A stretch of 25,789 nt of DNA from a virus: the IMG/VR virus record IMGVR_UViG_3300009603_000053, positions 1-25,789 of that record; one strand, 5' to 3'. Positions within the stretch are counted from its first letter, which is position 1; each line of letters begins with the position of its first letter. A program made the position numbers and the translations under genes. This document shows positions 4,107 to 25,310 of the stretch, one piece after another. The notes under the pieces are model-generated. The model did not search any database, was not told the DNA's origin, and saw only the letters and a list, made by a program, of their open reading frames with translations.

Positions 4107-4273
4107 ATGAAATTATGGCCGGATTTAAAGGTAAAAAAACTTTTATCTTGAGTTTTGTCGCGGTTGCCAGTTTATTTTGTGAAATGAATGGCTGGTGGAT
4201 GGCACCGAAAGAATGGTACATGATGTTGGGATTTGGTGGAATGGCCAGCGTTCGCGCCGGCATGTCTAAGTAA
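4103..4273 (+). CDS. Small membrane protein, holin candidate
   Basis: A 56-residue gene beginning MNEIMAGFKGKKTFILSFVA. A hydrophilic basic start (KGKK) is followed by one hydrophobic stretch (TFILSFVAVASLFCEM) and a second, weaker one (WYMMLGFGGMASVRAGM), suggesting one or two membrane spans. ATGA overlap with the gene before, GGGAG at 4090-4094 upstream and TAATG overlap with the gene after support it as real. Size, topology and location between the peptidase and spanins fit a small holin that lets the endolysin reach the cell wall. No holin family signature is certain. Confidence 0.62.
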   Translation: MNEIMAGFKGKKTFILSFVAVASLFCEMNGWWMAPKEWYMMLGFGGMASVRAGMSK

Positions 4274-4494
4274 TGCCCAGGGACTACCGGGGAGAATACG
4301 ATAATTACCAATCCCGTCCGAAGCAGCTTAAAAATAGGAGCTCCCGGAACAAGGCGCGGCGGAAAATGGTCAACGCCGGGAAAGCTTCAAAGGGGGATGG
4401 TAAGGATGTACACCATAAGGACAATAATCCGCGCAACAATGCGAGAAAAAATTTAACCATCATGGGTAAATCCATGAACAGGAGAAAAAAATGA
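4273..4494 (+). CDS. HNH-like small basic protein
   Basis: A 73-residue, strongly basic product. Its second half, GDGKDVHHKDNNPRNNARKN followed by LTIMGKSMNR, has the compact HNH pattern. A His-His/Asp-His pair is followed by Asn residues in N-N-P-x-N-N and a final N-L...N-R. Short phage proteins of this type, with the preceding Lys/Arg-rich helix (RNKARRKMVNAGKASKGDG), are usually annotated HNH endonucleases, although no zinc-binding cysteines are present. It starts on the last base of the previous stop and its own stop overlaps the next ATG. A nicking or packaging-associated activity is possible; homing is conceivable but unproven. Confidence 0.68.
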   Translation: MPRDYRGEYDNYQSRPKQLKNRSSRNKARRKMVNAGKASKGDGKDVHHKDNNPRNNARKNLTIMGKSMNRRKK

Positions 4495-5385: not shown

Positions 5386-6577
5386 CGTAATGATCGACCA
5401 AATGCTGCAAAGGCCCGGATCCTATTATCACCTGTTTCCCACTGGTCGGCAGGGTCGAAAAGCCATATACGAAGGAATCGGAAAAAACGGGATTGCCTAC
5501 ATGGACCATTTCCCGAAACAGATCATTGCCCGGAAAAACGACCAGGAAATGCTGGTCGAGGTCAAGGGGGAAAAGGGACATTCTATTTACCAGGTGGTCG
5601 GAACGGATAAGGGTATGGATTACCTTAGAGGAACCAACCCGGTCGGCGTTATCTTTTCAGAGTATTCGAGAATGAGCCCGGCGGTATGGGATACGATCCG
5701 CCCAATCCTCCGGGAGAACGAGGGTTGGGCGATTTTTGCCTACACGCCCTGGGGCGAGAATCACGGTTACGATTTATATAACATGGCCAAGGATAATGAT
5801 GAATGGTTCGCATCGTTTCTAACCGTTGATGATACGGTGGATCATGACGGCAAGCGCCTGATTTCCGATGCGGATGTCGAAGAGGAACGCAAATCCGGTA
5901 TGAGCAAAGAAATGGTTGCCCAGGAATTTTATTGTAGCTTTCAATCGGCATTGCCAGGGGCGTATTTTGCCAGTGAAATGGAATCCGCCCTGGAACAAGG
6001 GAGAATTACCCAGGTGGCTTATGAACCCGAGATCCCGGTTTCAACTTACTGGGATCTGGGACTTGCGGACGCCAATGCGATTTGGTTCGCGCAGCATGTC
6101 GGTAACGAAACCAGGCTGATTGATTATTATGAAAATTCCGGTGAGGGCCTGGTTCATTACATCCAGTTACTCCGGAGCAAGGAATATGTTTATGATCGGC
6201 ATCATGCACCGCATGACATCGAGGTTCGGGAATTTTCCACGGGAAGATCCAGGCGTGACACGGCGCTTAACCTCGGGATTGATTTTATAGTGGGCAAAAA
6301 GATTGACAAGATGGAATCCATCGATTCGCTCCGGCGCTATCTAGGCCGTTGCTGGTTTGACCAGGTAAAATGCAAAGTGGGGATTGCGGCATTGAGGAAT
6401 TATCATAAGGCATTTAATGACAAGACCCGGACCTTTTCCTCGCCGGTCCATGATTGGAGCTCGCACGGGGTAGATGCACTGATGGAATGTTCGAATGCCT
6501 ATTACCTGGACGGGTTTGAAGATACCAACCGGAAACAGACTCAAACCCTCAATGATTACGATATTTTTAATTCGTAA
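5249..6577 (+). CDS. terL: Terminase large subunit
   Basis: A 442-residue DNA-packaging motor with an ATPase followed by a nuclease domain. YRPRSYQKPVW (10-20) is the adenine-binding Q region. TWHRRAGKD (33-41) is the Walker A variant with Arg-Ala-Gly-Lys, VGVIFSE (132-138) is Walker B ending in the catalytic Glu, and AYTPWGE (164-170) is the coupling motif. The RNase H-like nuclease has Asp269 (TYWDLGLAD), Asp323 (PHDIEVRE), and Asp402 or Asp409 in HDWSSHGVDAL. The length is normal for podoviral terminases of this type. GGAGG at 5238-5242 lies 6 bases before ATG 5249, deciding the start despite overlap with the upstream gene. It works at the portal vertex to pump DNA into the prohead. Confidence 0.95.
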   Translation: MSNISIPHLYRPRSYQKPVWLAMELGVKRLVLTWHRRAGKDCTSLNVMIDQMLQRPGSYYHLFPTGRQGRKAIYEGIGKNGIAYMDHFPKQIIARKNDQEMLVEVKGEKGHSIYQVVGTDKGMDYLRGTNPVGVIFSEYSRMSPAVWDTIRPILRENEGWAIFAYTPWGENHGYDLYNMAKDNDEWFASFLTVDDTVDHDGKRLISDADVEEERKSGMSKEMVAQEFYCSFQSALPGAYFASEMESALEQGRITQVAYEPEIPVSTYWDLGLADANAIWFAQHVGNETRLIDYYENSGEGLVHYIQLLRSKEYVYDRHHAPHDIEVREFSTGRSRRDTALNLGIDFIVGKKIDKMESIDSLRRYLGRCWFDQVKCKVGIAALRNYHKAFNDKTRTFSSPVHDWSSHGVDALMECSNAYYLDGFEDTNRKQTQTLNDYDIFNS

Positions 6578-6665
6578 GAAAATTTAACATTTCACTAGGA
6601 TTTTGATTGCCAATTCGATTAGGTTTTATTTACCTTTAACCAAGAATACTAAAGGAGTAAAAAAA

Positions 6666-6929
6666 ATGGGTTTTATTTTTTCGCCGCCAAAAATGCCAAG
6701 TCCTCCCCCCTTACCTCCGCCGCCCAAACCGATTGTGATGCAACCGGTTCCCGAGCCGCCTCCGCCGCCCGAGCCGCCGAAAGAGATTGACAGATCGGCC
6801 GAGGAAAAAGAGGAACGCATGGCAATCCTGGCGAGGAAACGTCAGGGACGAAGATCAACCATTATGACAGGGGCTTTAGGCGATACATCCGAGGCGAGTG
6901 CTTATAAGAAAAAATTGTTAGGAGACTAG
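6666..6929 (+). CDS. Proline-rich structural-module protein
   Basis: An 87-residue product with an N-terminal GFIFSPP, then a long polyproline region (about residues 6-45, including PPPLPPPPKP and EPPPPPEPP). A charged helix (ERMAILARKRQGRRSTIMTG) and a GD-ending tail follow. Many T7-like and BPP-1-like phages carry such a gene between terminase and portal, with the same R-R/G-R-x-S-T-I-x-T-G-x-x-G core. Its role is not established, though it may be a minor virion component. AAGGAG at 6651-6656 precedes ATG 6666; a longer in-frame start at 6603 lacks a site. The 88 bases before it, 6578-6665, are A/T-rich and hold no clear signal beyond a weak TTGATT...TATTTA. Confidence 0.8.
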   Translation: MGFIFSPPKMPSPPPLPPPPKPIVMQPVPEPPPPPEPPKEIDRSAEEKEERMAILARKRQGRRSTIMTGALGDTSEASAYKKKLLGD

Positions 6930-8588
6930 ATGCCAGATGTTATTTCGTTGATCAAGCGACACGATAAACTGAAACAACGGCGCACCCAATGGGAGCCATT
7001 TTTCAGAGATGTCCGGGATTATATTCGACCGAGAAAAGGCAAAGTGGATTCGTCAATTCATCAGTTCGGCCAACCGCTGACCAATAAGAGATTTGATTCT
7101 ACGGCCACGGAAGCGAATAGACTCCTTGCATTATCGATGCAGAACTCCCTCTGCCCGAGTTCAGTGATCTGGTACAAGTTGAAGATCCCCGAAGCTCACC
7201 GAATGGCAGAGCTTAATGATGATCCGGCAGTTCAGGCATGGTTCAACCAAGTCAGTGAAAAAATGTTCTATACCATGCACACTAGTAATTTCTACAGTGT
7301 GATCGGTGAGGCATTTTTGGATTACACTTCATTCGGTACCATCTGCATCATGGTCGATGAAGATGACCTGACCCATCCAAACTTTAACGGGATCATTTAT
7401 AAATCCATGCCGATTGGTGAATTTGTGTTTGCCGAGGACCGGCGTGGTGTACCTGATACATTATTTTGGGAATACAAGTTAAGTGCCAGGCAAGCCGCCC
7501 AGCAATTCGGGTTGAAGAATTTGCCCGAGGTCGTACGCGAAGCCGCCCAGGAAAAACCCGATGAAGAATATGATTTTCTCCGCGTGGTGCTTCCGGCCGA
7601 GGATTACTATTCGAAAAAACGCCGCGGTAAAGAAACCAAAGCATGGACCTCAATCGATATATTTTCACACGGTAAAGAAAAAGTTGCCGAGAGTGGATAC
7701 AACGAATTTCCTTATGCCATCGGAAGGTTTGCCAAGGAATCCGGCGAGCTCTGGGGAAGGTCCCCGGCCGATGTTGCCATGGCCGACATTAAAGTTTTAA
7801 ACAAGATCCGCGAGCTCGAACTACGCGCACTCAACAAGGCAGTCGATCCGCCACTGATCGCACCGCACCAGGGAATAGTCGGCGCTTTTAAACTTATTCC
7901 AGGAGCGATTAATTATTCACGCGAACCCGAACGCATTAAATTTTTACCATTCGAAGGCCGCTTTGATCTCACCAATCTAAAAGGGGATGAACTCAAACGC
8001 GGTATCCGGTCCATGTTCATGGCGGATCAGTTGATCATGCCGGAAAAACCGAACATGACCGCGCAAGAAGTTATTGAATTAAGGGATCAGTTTCAGCGTA
8101 TGTTAGGCCCCACGGTTTCACGTTTTGAATCCGAGGTGCTTAATCCGCTGGTAATTCGTACGTTCGCCATTGGTTTCAGGACCGGGCTGTTTCCTCCTCC
8201 TCCGGAAGCATTGCACGGGCTCAATGAAATCGATGTCGAATTCGTTGGGAGCTTGGCCAAGGCACAAAAACTTAGTGACGTTTCAGCTATAACACAGTGG
8301 TTTGGTATGCTTGGCCAGGCGGCCCAATTTGCTCCGGATATTCTTGACATCGTGGATTTTGAAGAGGCATTAAGAATTCTCGGTGATCGCCTGGCGGTTC
8401 CGGGTGAAGCACTCAAATCGAAAGCGGCATTGCAGCAATTAAGAACGGTCAAGGCAGAACAGATGCAACAACAACAACAAACAAACGAATTGATGCAAGC
8501 GGCCCAAGGGGTGAGTATGGCCGGTCCCGGCATCAAGGCACTAGCGGAGGCAAATGAAAAAACAGAGGGAGTGGGAGCCGAAGTTTGA
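6930..8588 (+). CDS. Portal (head-tail connector) protein
   Basis: A 552-residue protein of the T7 gp8-like head-tail connector family, which forms the dodecameric ring through which DNA enters and leaves. Family features are the N-terminal helix QRRTQWEPFFRDVRDYI and then RFDSTATEANRLLALSMQN. Further on are SFGTICIMVDEDD, the SPADVAMADIKVLNKI region and the wing/clip region with KAVDPPLIAP. The C-terminal barrel has GPTVSRFESEVLNPLVIRTF, and the tail is Gln-rich (MQQQQQTNELMQAAQ). The length is typical (500-560). The ATG directly follows the preceding TAG. The 3' end overlaps the next gene by 35 bases. Confidence 0.95.
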   Translation: MPDVISLIKRHDKLKQRRTQWEPFFRDVRDYIRPRKGKVDSSIHQFGQPLTNKRFDSTATEANRLLALSMQNSLCPSSVIWYKLKIPEAHRMAELNDDPAVQAWFNQVSEKMFYTMHTSNFYSVIGEAFLDYTSFGTICIMVDEDDLTHPNFNGIIYKSMPIGEFVFAEDRRGVPDTLFWEYKLSARQAAQQFGLKNLPEVVREAAQEKPDEEYDFLRVVLPAEDYYSKKRRGKETKAWTSIDIFSHGKEKVAESGYNEFPYAIGRFAKESGELWGRSPADVAMADIKVLNKIRELELRALNKAVDPPLIAPHQGIVGAFKLIPGAINYSREPERIKFLPFEGRFDLTNLKGDELKRGIRSMFMADQLIMPEKPNMTAQEVIELRDQFQRMLGPTVSRFESEVLNPLVIRTFAIGFRTGLFPPPPEALHGLNEIDVEFVGSLAKAQKLSDVSAITQWFGMLGQAAQFAPDILDIVDFEEALRILGDRLAVPGEALKSKAALQQLRTVKAEQMQQQQQTNELMQAAQGVSMAGPGIKALAEANEKTEGVGAEV

Positions 8589-8814: not shown

Positions 8815-9654
8815 ATGGCAACTGAAACGCAAGAGCCGGTAACCGACACCTCGAGCGAATCTGAAGCAGCGCCGCTGGAAGCACCAGCCACATGGATTGA
8901 TGATGTTCCGGAGGATTACCGGGAAGAAAAATCGTTAAGCAAATATCAATCGGTCGGTGACCTGGCAAAAGGCCATGTACACCTTTCCCGGATGATGGGG
9001 AACTCGGTCAAGATCCCCGGCGAAGAGTCAACCGATGAAGAGCGTAACGATTTTTATACCAAGCTGGGGCGCCCGGAAACGGCGGACAAGTATGAGTATG
9101 CACGCCCGGATATGCCGGAAGGAATGTCATACGATGAAGATTCAGAAAAAGCATTCAAACAACTGGCGCATGACCAGGGCATCACGCAAACACAATTAGG
9201 ATCCATCCTGGATTTTTATAATAAGTTTGCCCTGGATTCCCAAATTGACCAGAAATTGCACATGGATGAAGCCTATTTTAAAGGCGAGGCGGCACTGCAA
9301 AAAGAATGGGGAATGAAGGGGTACGATCGTAACGTGGCGATCGCACAACGGGCCATGAAAGAATTTGGTGGTCCGGAGCTCGAGAAATTATTAACCACGG
9401 ATCCCCGTGGTTCCCATCCGGCGCTGATCAAAGCGTTTTACCAGATGGGATTAAAAAGCCAAGAGGCTCGGCCATTGGATTCCGAACATGATTCCAGTTT
9501 TCTTGATGTTGGCTCGGCGTTGAAGGAAATTGAAAATTTCAACAAGCCCGGACATAAACATTATAAAGCGTACTGGGACAAGAACGATCCCAAGCATGCC
9601 GAGGCTATTGCTTTCCGGGATCGCCTGTTTGATATGGCTTACCCGGAGGAATAA
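8815..9654 (+). CDS. Capsid scaffolding protein
   Basis: A 279-residue acidic protein with a disordered N-terminus rich in Glu, Ser, Thr and Ala (TETQEPVTDTSSESEAAPLE). There follows WIDDVPEDYREEKSLSKYQS with VGDLAKGHVHLSRMMG, a segment common in podoviral scaffolds, and FYTKLGRPETADKYEYARPD, the hallmark G-R-P-x-x-x-x-x-Y motif. The middle is long helices, and the C-terminus carries HKHYKAYWDKNDPKHAEAI, likely the capsid-binding end. Scaffold subunits line the inside of the prohead and leave before or during packaging. Position between portal and capsid is canonical. AAAGGAG is well placed. Confidence 0.9.
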   Translation: MATETQEPVTDTSSESEAAPLEAPATWIDDVPEDYREEKSLSKYQSVGDLAKGHVHLSRMMGNSVKIPGEESTDEERNDFYTKLGRPETADKYEYARPDMPEGMSYDEDSEKAFKQLAHDQGITQTQLGSILDFYNKFALDSQIDQKLHMDEAYFKGEAALQKEWGMKGYDRNVAIAQRAMKEFGGPELEKLLTTDPRGSHPALIKAFYQMGLKSQEARPLDSEHDSSFLDVGSALKEIENFNKPGHKHYKAYWDKNDPKHAEAIAFRDRLFDMAYPEE

Positions 9655-10009: not shown

Positions 10010-11412
10010 ATGAGCACTGAAGTCAACAAGGCTTTTGTCAACAAGTATCGCTCCAATTTCATTCACCTTGCCCAGCAAAAAGGTTCGCGTTTGCGAAACT
10101 TTGTGCGAGTGAATGAGGGTGTAGTAGGTAAGGCAGATCATTTTGACCGCTTGGGTAGTACATCGGCGCAAAAAATGACAAGTCGGCATGCAGACACGCC
10201 GCTTATTTCTACACCCCACTCCAGGCGAAAAGTTGTGATGGAAGATTACAACTGGGCGGATCAAAAAATAGGTCCCTTTACATGGCAACATGTATCGAAC
10301 AACTCCGTGAACTCAGGGAACCTCTTAACGGGTTATGCCGTAGACAATCCTGAGCCGAGCCTACTAATGGTAGGAAGGTGCAACGATCATCCCGGAAGGG
10401 AGTACATCACAAGCGTGATGGAAGCGCGGAGCAACCTTAATGGTTGATGATATGATCTGGTCTTTATGGAAACATAAAGCAGTGGGAAACCACGGATAAG
10501 GTTTTGCGAACCTTGTTGAACATATACGCTAGTGGACAAGGCAGATCAGATAAAAATGTTATCTGATCCCAAGTCCGAATATATGACCGCTGGAGTTTGG
10601 GCAATGGGTAGAACAATTGATGACTTGATTTTGGCCGCGATGACAGGAAACGCTACCAGCGTATCCTCGACCGATGCCGCGTCAGACGTAGCTCTACCTT
10701 CCGCGCAGAAAATAGTTCACGGGTTATTGCAATGGCCCCTTTACATGGTGACATGTATCGAAAAATTTTGTGAATTCATGGAACGCCTTATCGGGAAACC
10801 GAAGGTAATCATGAGCCAAGCCCACTAAGGTGGGAAGGTGCAACGACCATCCCGAAAGGGAGTACACCGCGAGTGCGGTGGAAGCGCAAAACAACCCAAT
10901 GGGTTGATGATATGGTCTGGTCTTTATGGAAACATAAAGCTGGGATAATCCCGGGCAAGGAATAACAAACCTTGTTGAACATAAACGCGGCTGGAATGAC
11001 TATGGCAAAACTACGAACTGCAAGGAAAATATTACGGGAGGCAGACATTGATCCCGATGAAGAACTTTATCTCGCCATCAGCGGAGATAAAATGGATGAT
11101 CTGTTTTCTGAATCAGGAACTCCGATCATCAATTTTGATTACAACGACAAGAAACCGATGGTTACCGGAAGCATAGGTGCCTTTTTCGGTTTTAATTTTA
11201 TTCACACAGAGCGACTCAATAACGATTCGGATGGTAACCAGCAAGTGTTGGCATGGGCCAAGTCTGGAGTGGGACTTTCTATCGGGCAAAATATCGAGAC
11301 TAAGATCTCGGAACGGCCAGATAAAAATTACTCATTTCAAACTTATGCCCAGATGTCACTGGGATCCGTAAGAATACAAGATAATCACGTTATTGAAATT
11401 GCTTGCCAATAA
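10010..11412 (+). CDS. Major capsid protein, split by two group I introns
   Basis: The coding sequence joins 10010-10261, 10529-10724 and 10988-11412 (873 bases, 290 residues). Without splicing, frame 1 stops at 10447 after a 145-residue truncated product. Splicing restores WAD-LVDKADQIKM and KIVHG-SAGMTMAKL, both conserved blocks of the podoviral capsid family sometimes named Phage_capsid_2. Other family blocks are TPHSRRKVVMEDYNWAD, GVWAMGRTIDDLILAAMTGN, DIDPDEELYLAIS and GAFFGFNFIHTERL. The subunit forms the icosahedral shell around scaffold and DNA. GAGAGG precedes the start, inside a hairpin. The splice junctions preserve frame exactly: GAT then CTA at the first, GGG T then CG GCT at the second. 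Reading the three open frames as separate genes is rejected, since each internal 'start' lies mid-fold. Confidence 0.93.
10262..10528 (+). ncRNA. Group I self-splicing intron 1 in the capsid gene (267 bases)
   Basis: The 5' exon ends in GGAU (10258-10261), which pairs with GUCC (10272-10275) to form P1 with the required U-G wobble. The intron ends in G10528. The 3' exon CUA (10529-10531) pairs with UAG (10269-10271) as P10. P2 is TACATG-gcaa-CATGTA (10279-10294). P4 is CTCAGG/CCTGAG (10312-10317, 10349-10354). CCTAC/GTAGG (10360-10364, 10370-10374) is another stem. P7 is GATCAT/ATGATC (10385-10390, 10452-10457), with a CATCAC/GTGATG hairpin between. P9 is CTTTATG-gaaa-CATAAAG (10462-10479). 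The P7/P9 arrangement resembles the IA2 introns of phage T4 (td). No endonuclease gene is present. Confidence 0.92.
10725..10987 (+). ncRNA. Group I self-splicing intron 2 in the capsid gene (263 bases)
   Basis: The 5' exon ends in GGGU (10721-10724), pairing with GCCC downstream in the intron as P1 with a U-G wobble; the intron ends in G10987. P2 is TACATG-gtga-CATGTA. P4 is TTCATG/CATGAG (10775-10780, 10810-10815). CCCAC/GTGGG is at 10821-10825 and 10830-10834. P7 is GACCAT/ATGGTC (10845-10850, 10912-10917). A CACCGC/GCGGTG hairpin lies at 10865-10880, and P9 CTTTATG-gaaa-CATAAAG at 10922-10939. The fold and much of the sequence match intron 1, with paired changes in P4, P7 and the variable hairpins. 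The P10 pairing is weak here. No endonuclease gene is present. Confidence 0.92.
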
Positions 11413-11424
11413 GGGAGGTGTACG

Positions 11425-11886
11425 ATGGCTACATATTATAGTACTGAATACACCACTCACCGTGATGGTCCGGACAAGAATGATCCGACAACCAGCAACG
11501 GCGTTGTGTATGAATATGCACGATTTACAGGGCAAGCACTTTCAAGCTCTGACACGGTTGAATTGATGAAGATCCCAGCCGGGGTCCGTATTTTACCGCA
11601 ATCTTTCATTATCGTTTCTGACCTAGAATCGTCAGCAACGGTTAACGTTGGATACGCGGCTCATACGGCACTCACCGATGGGTCTGCCGTGGCAGTCGAT
11701 GTTGATGCTTTCTGTAGTGCGATTGCGGCCGATTCCGCAAGGACGGTCACGCACTTTCATGAGAGCGGAACGCATGACACGGGCTACGTCACAACCGGGG
11801 AAATGATTTTGACCCTTGGTTTAGGCGCTGGCACATCAGTTTCCGCTGATACCTTTGACATGCATATTATGTATTGCAAAGGCTAA
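11425..11886 (+). CDS. Putative head decoration or minor structural protein
   Basis: A 153-residue protein with strong AAGGGAGGTG upstream (11410-11419), directly after the capsid gene. The sequence is beta-rich and Ser/Thr/Ala-rich (FTGQALSSSDTVELMKIPAG, VRILPQSFIIVSDLESS, TVNVGYAAHTALTDGSAVAV). This suggests a beta-sandwich of the sort found in capsid decoration and head-stabilising proteins. The Val-Glu-Leu-x-x-Ile-Pro-x-Gly-x-x-Ile/Val-Leu phrase recurs in small proteins encoded next to podoviral capsid genes. There is no signal peptide. Decoration is inferred from position, efficient translation signal and fold type; a tail protein is possible. Confidence 0.68.
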   Translation: MATYYSTEYTTHRDGPDKNDPTTSNGVVYEYARFTGQALSSSDTVELMKIPAGVRILPQSFIIVSDLESSATVNVGYAAHTALTDGSAVAVDVDAFCSAIAADSARTVTHFHESGTHDTGYVTTGEMILTLGLGAGTSVSADTFDMHIMYCKG

Positions 11887-23972: not shown

Positions 23973-25310
23973 ATGACTGTATCGACTACAACCAGAAAAA
24001 AGAGTTATACCGGTAATGGTTCGACAAATATTTTCGCGTATGATTTCCGAATTTTTAGTGATTCGGATTTAAAAGTATACGTTGATTCCGTTTTAAAATC
24101 CCTCACGACTCATTACACAGTATCCGGAGCCGGAGCGGCATCAGGCGGAAATGTGACATTCACACTCGGCAATACTCCGGCAAGTTCGAAGAGTGTCGTA
24201 CTTCTCCGCACGCTTCCCCGAACACAAGCAACCGATTACGTTGACAACTCCGCATTAAGCGCAACCTCTCTTGAAGATACCGCTGATAAAAATTTAATGC
24301 TGATCCAAGAGATCGATGCGGTAGCCGGGGAAGGTTTTGGATTTGCTGAAACGGTCGTGGATGCCGGAACCACAACGGTCAACAAGAACGCAGCGGATCG
24401 CGCTAATAAATTACTATCATTCGATGCGGCTGGCGGACTGATCGCCACGCAAGAAATCGGGGTGAGCCGGGGAAACTGGGCAGCCTCGACTGCATATATT
24501 CAGCGCGACATTATTAAGGATACCGATAATAATAATATTTATCTCTGTATTGTTGCACACACATCCAGTGGAGCGGTTCCGATCAGTTCGAATACCGATG
24601 TAGCCAAGTGGGTTTTATTAGTTGATGCCGCGAGTGCAACGACCAGCGCCACGGCGGCTGCTACCAGTGCGACCGCTAGTGCGACCAGTGCGACCGCTAG
24701 TGCGACCAGTGCAACCGCGGCAGCTACATCTGCAACTGCCGGGGCAACCTCCGCCACGGCTAGTGCAACCTCGGCAACCGCGGCGGCTTCCAGTGCGACT
24801 GCGGCGGCGGCATCAGCGGATGCGTTTGATGATTTATATTTAGGGAGCAAGTCGGGGGATGTATCCGTTGACAATGATGGGGATGCACTCACGGCTGGAG
24901 ATTTATATTTTAATACCTCTGCCAATAATTTAAGAGTATGGAATGGATCAGCATGGCAAGTCGCTGCGGTAAGCACCAGCGGAATGCTCACAGAAATCAG
25001 TGAGGATACTTCGCCGCAACTTGGTGGTGACCTCGATACAAACTCGCGAAACATTTTAATCGATGACGCACATTTTATCGCGGACGATAGCGGCAATGAA
25101 TATATTATTTTCCAGAAAACTGCATCAGCAATCAATCAAATTGATGTGACGAATGCGGCGGCTGACAACGATCCAAGTATCACCGCAACGGGTGGCGATA
25201 GCAATGTTGGTTTAACTATTGCAGCCAAAGGCACCGGGGTAGTCCAAATTACAACAACGATGAATCCAACATTAACCAGTACAGGCAAGGCTCTAGTCCT
25301 TGGATTTTAG
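23973..25310 (+). CDS. Tail fibre protein with T7 gp17-like N-terminus
   Basis: A 445-residue fibre. Residues 1-150 follow the T7 tail fibre N-terminal domain that docks on the tail: KSYTGNGSTNIFAYDFRIF, then VYVDSVLKSLTTHYTVSGAG, VVLLRTLPRTQATDYV and SLEDTADKNLMLIQEI. Residues about 165-215 (NWAASTAYIQRDIIKDTD, IYLCIVAHTSSG) resemble a small carbohydrate-binding module. Residues 220-283 are an Ala/Thr/Ser heptad array. LYLGSKSGDVSVDNDGDALT followed by GDLYFNTSANNLRVWNGSAW is a segment common in marine phage fibres. The end, TAAKGTGVVQITTT-like, is short, with no chaperone domain. Receptor binding may involve the following genes. Confidence 0.88.
   Translation: MTVSTTTRKKSYTGNGSTNIFAYDFRIFSDSDLKVYVDSVLKSLTTHYTVSGAGAASGGNVTFTLGNTPASSKSVVLLRTLPRTQATDYVDNSALSATSLEDTADKNLMLIQEIDAVAGEGFGFAETVVDAGTTTVNKNAADRANKLLSFDAAGGLIATQEIGVSRGNWAASTAYIQRDIIKDTDNNNIYLCIVAHTSSGAVPISSNTDVAKWVLLVDAASATTSATAAATSATASATSATASATSATAAATSATAGATSATASATSATAAASSATAAAASADAFDDLYLGSKSGDVSVDNDGDALTAGDLYFNTSANNLRVWNGSAWQVAAVSTSGMLTEISEDTSPQLGGDLDTNSRNILIDDAHFIADDSGNEYIIFQKTASAINQIDVTNAAADNDPSITATGGDSNVGLTIAAKGTGVVQITTTMNPTLTSTGKALVLGF
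24634..24822 (+). repeat. In-frame heptad repeat array in the tail fibre gene
   Basis: About eight degenerate 21-base units encode seven-residue repeats of the form ATSATAA, ATSATAS or ATSATAG. Two adjacent units, 24669-24689 and 24690-24710, are identical copies of 21 bases; the others differ mainly at third positions. Such a tract should form a flexible or helical fibre shaft and can change length by slippage without losing frame. Confidence 0.85.

Follow-up and report, generated by a model that had tools for sequence, protein, structure and literature searches.

Two related group I introns without open reading frames in the major capsid gene of a marine-type phage

The question raised by this locus is whether three consecutive open reading frames of a marine-type phage represent broken genes or the pieces of a single capsid gene. 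The window, i.e., the whole stretch of 25,789 nt that was analysed (positions 1 to 25,789 of IMG/VR record IMGVR_UViG_3300009603_000053), contains at this place three distinct open reading frames in a mechanical listing (10010-10447, 10532-10828, and 10972-11412), just as the earlier note on this DNA, which expected automatic annotation to report three broken genes, had foreseen. The same note proposed that the removal of 10262-10528 and 10725-10987 turns these frames into one 290-residue capsid protein. Indeed, the segments 10010-10261, 10529-10724, and 10988-11412, when joined, form 873 nt in frame, which encode 290 aa followed by a stop codon. The gene is set in a podovirus-type module, with the genes of a head-tail adaptor and tail tubular proteins. 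The coding features relevant here are:

6930..8588, plus strand: head-tail adaptor, a podovirus-type portal-position protein (phrog_332, E 8.9e-135)
8815..9654, plus strand: scaffold-type protein for capsid assembly, encoded ahead of the capsid gene (phrog_3742 / phrog_458; positioned as the 'capsid assembly protein' of Pelagibacter phage Baldr)
10010..10261, plus strand: exon 1 of the major capsid gene, codons 1-84, ending ...NWAD (PF19821 positions 1-80; uninterrupted homologues in L001, L002, and L009)
10529..10724, plus strand: exon 2 of the major capsid gene, 196 nt, a length not divisible by 3 (PF19821 positions 82-139)
10988..11412, plus strand: exon 3 of the major capsid gene, with the stop codon (PF19821 positions 149-291)

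A search with capsid profiles, which the earlier note had suggested as a check, recovers the spliced product at full length. The match to the phrog_3437 major head protein spans positions 1-290 (E 2.3e-85) and scores 287 bits for the joined protein vs. 72, 55, and 129 bits for the three pieces taken singly, each of which covers its own third, while the match to PF19821 (Phage_capsid_2) scores 258.6 bits (curated cut-off 25) over positions 1-291 of 293. A solved relative is 9eg4, 'Phage major capsid protein'. The junction residues WAD-LVD and VHG-SAGM are found at the bases at which they had been predicted, and the first insertion site (site 1) lies inside the conserved capsid block MEDYNWAD. 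One essential capsid gene would be annotated automatically as three broken genes, and phages of such a kind therefore lose a much-used marker gene.

Natural intronless alleles are the strongest evidence for the interruption of a single gene. In L001 and L002 (96% protein identity) and in L009 (98% over 220 residues), the capsid gene is uninterrupted and the DNA is continuous across both junctions. The junctions of L001 read GGGCAGAT directly followed by TTAGTGGAC, and CATGGTT directly followed by CCGCTGGA, and the sites are empty at exactly the predicted bases. Chance is excluded, because the intronless relatives read identically across both junctions. L018 contains intron 1 only, with an exact empty site 2, and L036 contains intron 2 only. 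Both introns are present in L037, L038, L039, and L046, where their sequence is identical to that in the window as far as the contigs reach (L046 stops within intron 2; L080, L128, and L156 show three of these four contigs again). A natural series is thereby represented within one gene, comprising alleles with neither intron, with either one alone, and with both. Of the 74 capsid loci in viral contigs that were counted, 72 could be scored at site 1 (5 occupied, 67 empty) and 68 at site 2 (5 occupied, 63 empty); most of the occupied ones are copies of one phage, that of the window. The supposition that two introns in the capsid gene of a podovirus are uncommon is therefore borne out within this capsid family, but not for phages at large, among which precedents exist (PMC3706429, PMC7886860).

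The three broken frames of the raw annotation could also be read as a sign that the inserts are not introns, i.e., that the capsid gene is decayed or frameshifted, or that it is interrupted by a translational bypass element, an intein, or an assembly artefact. We assign to this reading a negligible probability, as the exact empty sites in relatives effectively refute it. The frame continuing each exon meets stops in both inserts, and hence they are not inteins. They are not an assembly artefact either, since intronless, single-intron, and identical double-intron contigs exist, the last of these among several further IMG/VR contigs that belong to different data sets. Decay is further contradicted by purifying selection on the exons (dN 0.05 vs. 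dS 0.7-0.8), and the pairing expected of a ribozyme is compensated between the two inserts. That both are group I introns is supported by Rfam score, compensated structure, and exact empty sites. Their features are:

10262..10528, plus strand: group I intron 1, 267 nt, without an open reading frame of its own
10258..10275, plus strand: P1 of intron 1, exon GGAU (10258-10261) with guide GUCC (10272-10275), U.G at the splice site
10269-10271 with 10529-10531, plus strand: P10 of intron 1, 3 bp, UAG with CUA
10725..10987, plus strand: group I intron 2, 263 nt, without an open reading frame of its own
10721..10738, plus strand: P1 of intron 2, exon GGGU (10721-10724) with guide GCCC (10735-10738), U.G at the splice site

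In a scan of the whole window, the Rfam group I intron model RF00028, proposed earlier as a check, matched both intervals above its gathering score of 50, at 10252-10479 (61.7 bits, E 1.3e-13; a modest score for intron 1) and at 10715-10939 (96.4 bits, E 5e-24). No other Rfam family scored above its cut-off in the window, and the same search gave no RF00028 match in the intronless relatives. A permissive Rfam scan additionally pointed to isrG at 24647-24803 on the minus strand (29 bits vs. a cut-off of 100), which we rejected as a composition artefact located in the Ala/Ser/Thr repeat of a tail-type protein (ORF 23973-25310). The marks of group I splicing recognised in the earlier note, namely the 5' exons ending in T, their pairing with internal guides (GGAU/GUCC and GGGU/GCCC), the terminal G, and the P10 of intron 1, are all present at the bases named there. 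The terminal G of the introns is at 10528 and 10987, and U.G occurs at the 5' splice site in all four distinct introns that were aligned.

The structure of these four introns was written out from P1 to P9.2. A total of 69 structure pairs form in each of the four at all places where neither letter is missing, although the percentage paired is biased, because the structure was drawn from the same sequences plus the Rfam consensus. Every helix of the P3-P8 core, with its P3/P7 pseudoknot and P4-P6 domain, pairs in all four introns. Between intron 1 and intron 2, there are 11 two-sided compensatory changes (one in P1, three in P3, one in P4, two in P5, one in P6, one in P7, and two in P7.2). The one in P1 concerns the third pair, which is A-U in intron 1 and G-C in intron 2; the exon change from A to G is accompanied by a change from U to C in the guide, i.e., the guide co-varies with the exon. 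When the partner strand was slid as a control, 1-2 two-sided pairs remained vs. 11. In the shuffle control, none of 500 shuffles matched the covariation score or the cell count, while 40 of 500 reached 11 two-sided pairs, since only four sequences, in two groups, are compared. Each intron folds better than all 200 of its shuffles (z-scores -4.4 and -5.4).

All four introns have the hairpins P7.1, P7.2, P9.1, and P9.2, and a layout with P7.1/P7.2 and P9.1/P9.2 is that of subgroup IA phage introns. P7.1/P7.2 are used in the classing of group I introns (PMC3984707). As judged from the hairpin layout alone, both introns look like members of subgroup IA (IA2-like, phage type). Inside either intron, no open reading frame of 60 aa or more was found, and hence no intron-encoded homing endonuclease.

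Based on these features, both introns most likely self-splice by two transesterifications. Each intron would fold into a ribozyme within the primary transcript, its internal guide pairing with the last four exon bases to place the U.G pair at the splice site. Exogenous G would then cut the 5' splice site in a guanosine-initiated transesterification, and the exons would be joined after the terminal G of the intron, which would restore the 290-residue capsid frame. The capsid protein is needed in hundreds of copies, and virions would thus depend on both splicing events; we infer from the sequence that splicing occurs and is required for virion production. The skipping of exon 2 would lead to a stop after three codons (...NWADRLE stop), and so it matters that the two ends of an intron pair strictly with each other. 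Ribosomes leaving exon 1 could advance through 61 codons of intron 1 until they meet a stop, and such read-through could hinder the folding of this intron. We are highly confident in the explanation taken as a whole, namely that two introns free of open reading frames and derived from one ancestor self-splice to restore the capsid frame, and that their lineage has since moved to diverged alleles.

The common origin of the two introns is suggested by their sequences, which are 79.5% identical over 259 nt. Among the matches listed, no other intron matches either of them as well over its length. In a tree of the capsid introns and about 90 other viral-contig introns having one shared core motif, taken from the matches listed, the capsid introns form one clade (support 1.0) composed of a site-1 subclade (0.95) and a site-2 subclade (0.99), and the distance between site-1 and site-2 introns is 0.31 vs. 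at least 0.68 to anything else among those matches. In 2.9 million viral contigs, the 3' motif of the introns is confined to the capsid introns themselves, and an exact scan of about 85,000 bacterial and archaeal genomes gave no occurrence of it; the 5' motif has one further occurrence, in L173, a 155-kb phage record. As the capsid introns form sister subclades separated by a short distance and their motifs are nearly exclusive to them, one of the two capsid introns is most likely the source of the other; they descend from one ancestor, and one site was probably populated from the other site. Without any mutation, GUCC, the guide of intron 1, can base-pair with GGGU of site 2 through G.U, but GCCC, the guide of intron 2, faces A at site 1, and this weakly favours a spread from site 1 to site 2.

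Several other stretches were noted in the course of these comparisons. In L173, the 5' motif CCTTTACATGGNNACATGTATCGAA is found at about 6320-6800 on the minus strand after a RecA-like frame and is followed by an open reading frame that may encode an intron-encoded protein. L056 contains at 6040-6218, on the plus strand, a group I-like core in another viral gene (about 80% identity to intron 1 over 177 nt), with flanks unlike the capsid gene. L065, L075, L093, L103, and L118 each contain two or more separate intron-like stretches and are candidates for multi-intron phage genes. An inverted stretch of 14 nt in 1075-1104 that matches intron 1 exactly was rejected, being at about chance level for a window of this size.

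The distribution of the capsid introns is patchy and at odds with exon ancestry, and the intron lineage has moved into diverged alleles in related phages. The introns at the same site are 98% identical between the window and L018 (intron 1) or L036 (intron 2), with 6 differences each, while the exons of the same pairs are 85-87% identical (dS 0.68 and 0.81, respectively) and differ at 42 of 117 and 49 of 120 4-fold sites. The movement of introns between alleles follows from this disparity and from the rejection, in the capsid tree, of a single clade of the three intron-bearing alleles (AU p 1.75e-5). A purely vertical inheritance, in which near-total constraint keeps the introns alike and the intronless relatives have lost them precisely, could appeal to the constrained nature of group I cores and to the AU test for the window and L036 as sisters, which does not significantly exclude such a grouping (p 0.053; for the window and L018 as sisters, p 8e-4). 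However, at 57 positions that are changeable, as judged by comparing intron 1 with intron 2, 4 changes are found per same-site pair vs. about 20 predicted from the rates at 4-fold sites (binomial p 4e-7 and 1e-8), and thus constraint alone is insufficient to explain the 98% identity. Moreover, both introns are missing from L009, whose exons are the closest to those of the window (dS 0.24), while L018 and L036, which are more distant, carry near-identical ones. Vertical inheritance is therefore, in our opinion, very improbable.

Reverse splicing at the RNA level, recombination inside the intron, and an endonuclease acting in trans were considered as the routes by which the introns could have moved. 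In the case of the last one, an enzyme that is free-standing, or was formerly intron-encoded and then lost, would have cut intronless alleles, and repair would have copied the intron in. Homing is the established route for phage introns (PMC3984707), the occupancy of the capsid sites is patchy, and a free-standing 73-aa HNH_3 protein, just over the Pfam cut-off and the sole endonuclease-like gene seen, is encoded at 4273-4494 on the plus strand of the window and in near-identical contigs. Against this route speaks the lack of an open reading frame within either intron, as well as the absence of visible co-conversion at site 2, where the flanks identical between L036 and the window comprise 4 nt upstream of the intron, which are the guide target, and 1 nt downstream. 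The 24-nt identical upstream run shared by L018 and the window lies in a block largely common to intronless alleles and is uninformative on co-conversion. The HNH protein is also encoded, with 57-60% identity, by two relatives whose capsid genes are intronless (G012 and G013), and its gene is located just ahead of the terminase genes. HNH proteins next to terminase genes commonly serve packaging. Since intronless relatives also carry the gene, its product is perhaps packaging-associated rather than a homing enzyme, and it is a weak candidate for the introns' own endonuclease. Homing by an endonuclease in trans is thus a serious possibility, albeit one that we consider somewhat doubtful.

An endonuclease-free minimal group I lineage might have spread by reverse splicing, both between the two sites of the capsid message, which is highly expressed, and between phages, into alleles of the gene that have diverged; this is proposed here tentatively, as a possible but rather unlikely route. 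According to a 2014 review, the spread of introns by reverse splicing at the RNA level is without direct experimental evidence (PMC3984707). With introns more alike than the exons around them and no endonuclease inside them, the capsid gene offers a clean natural case for the study of how minimal group I introns move.

The kind of arrangement described here is already known, as there are precedents in several phages: the capsid-gene intron of mycobacteriophage LittleE, the splicing of which was proven by RT-PCR and N-terminal sequencing (PMC3706429), the capsid-gene intron of lactococcal phage Tuc2009, as cited in the same paper, several group I introns per capsid gene in crAss-like phages (PMC7886860), and the abundant group I introns of Jug phages (PMC12363816). 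As in LittleE, a group I-type intron resides in the major capsid gene, related alleles are intronless, and the terminal U/G rules apply; the tail-gene intron of BAKA (265 nt), to which a 5' intron segment of LittleE is 98% identical, also lacks an endonuclease gene (PMC3706429). Unlike in our case, where splicing is deduced from sequence, LittleE and BAKA are unrelated siphoviral phages with one intron per gene, an endonuclease in that of LittleE, and RT-PCR-proven splicing (PMC3706429). Introns 2 and 3 of Staphylococcus phage Twort orf142, as PMC10136302 relates from Landthaler and Shub (1999), are likewise two highly similar IA2-type introns flanking a short exon, but in that account Twort has three introns, an exon of 23 nt, and observed exon skipping, while the exon here is of 196 nt and the gene is that of the capsid. 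The major capsid gene of crAss-like phages is similarly split into several fragments by group I introns; however, these are large gut phages, and intron-type domains are encoded by three of the four segments of the example given there (PMC7886860), in contrast to the present small podovirus-type phage with its minimal introns that lack open reading frames. Pelagibacter phage EXVC032P Baldr and HTVC010P-type phages share with the window the capsid family (52.6% and 41% identity) and the surrounding gene order, but their capsid gene is uninterrupted, and the G+C content of the window is 47%. Less usual than these precedents are the full occupancy series in one gene and sister introns that are endonuclease-free and move without visible co-conversion.

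A minor observation concerns the lifestyle of the phage. L249 (IMGVR_UViG_3300025277_000082), a longer contig that is 99.99% identical to the window over 24.5 kb, contains at 10643-11740 on the minus strand an open reading frame of 365 aa that by eye resembles a tyrosine integrase, and a small nearby open reading frame could be excisionase-like. Because of these integrase-like and possible excisionase-like frames, the phage may be temperate.
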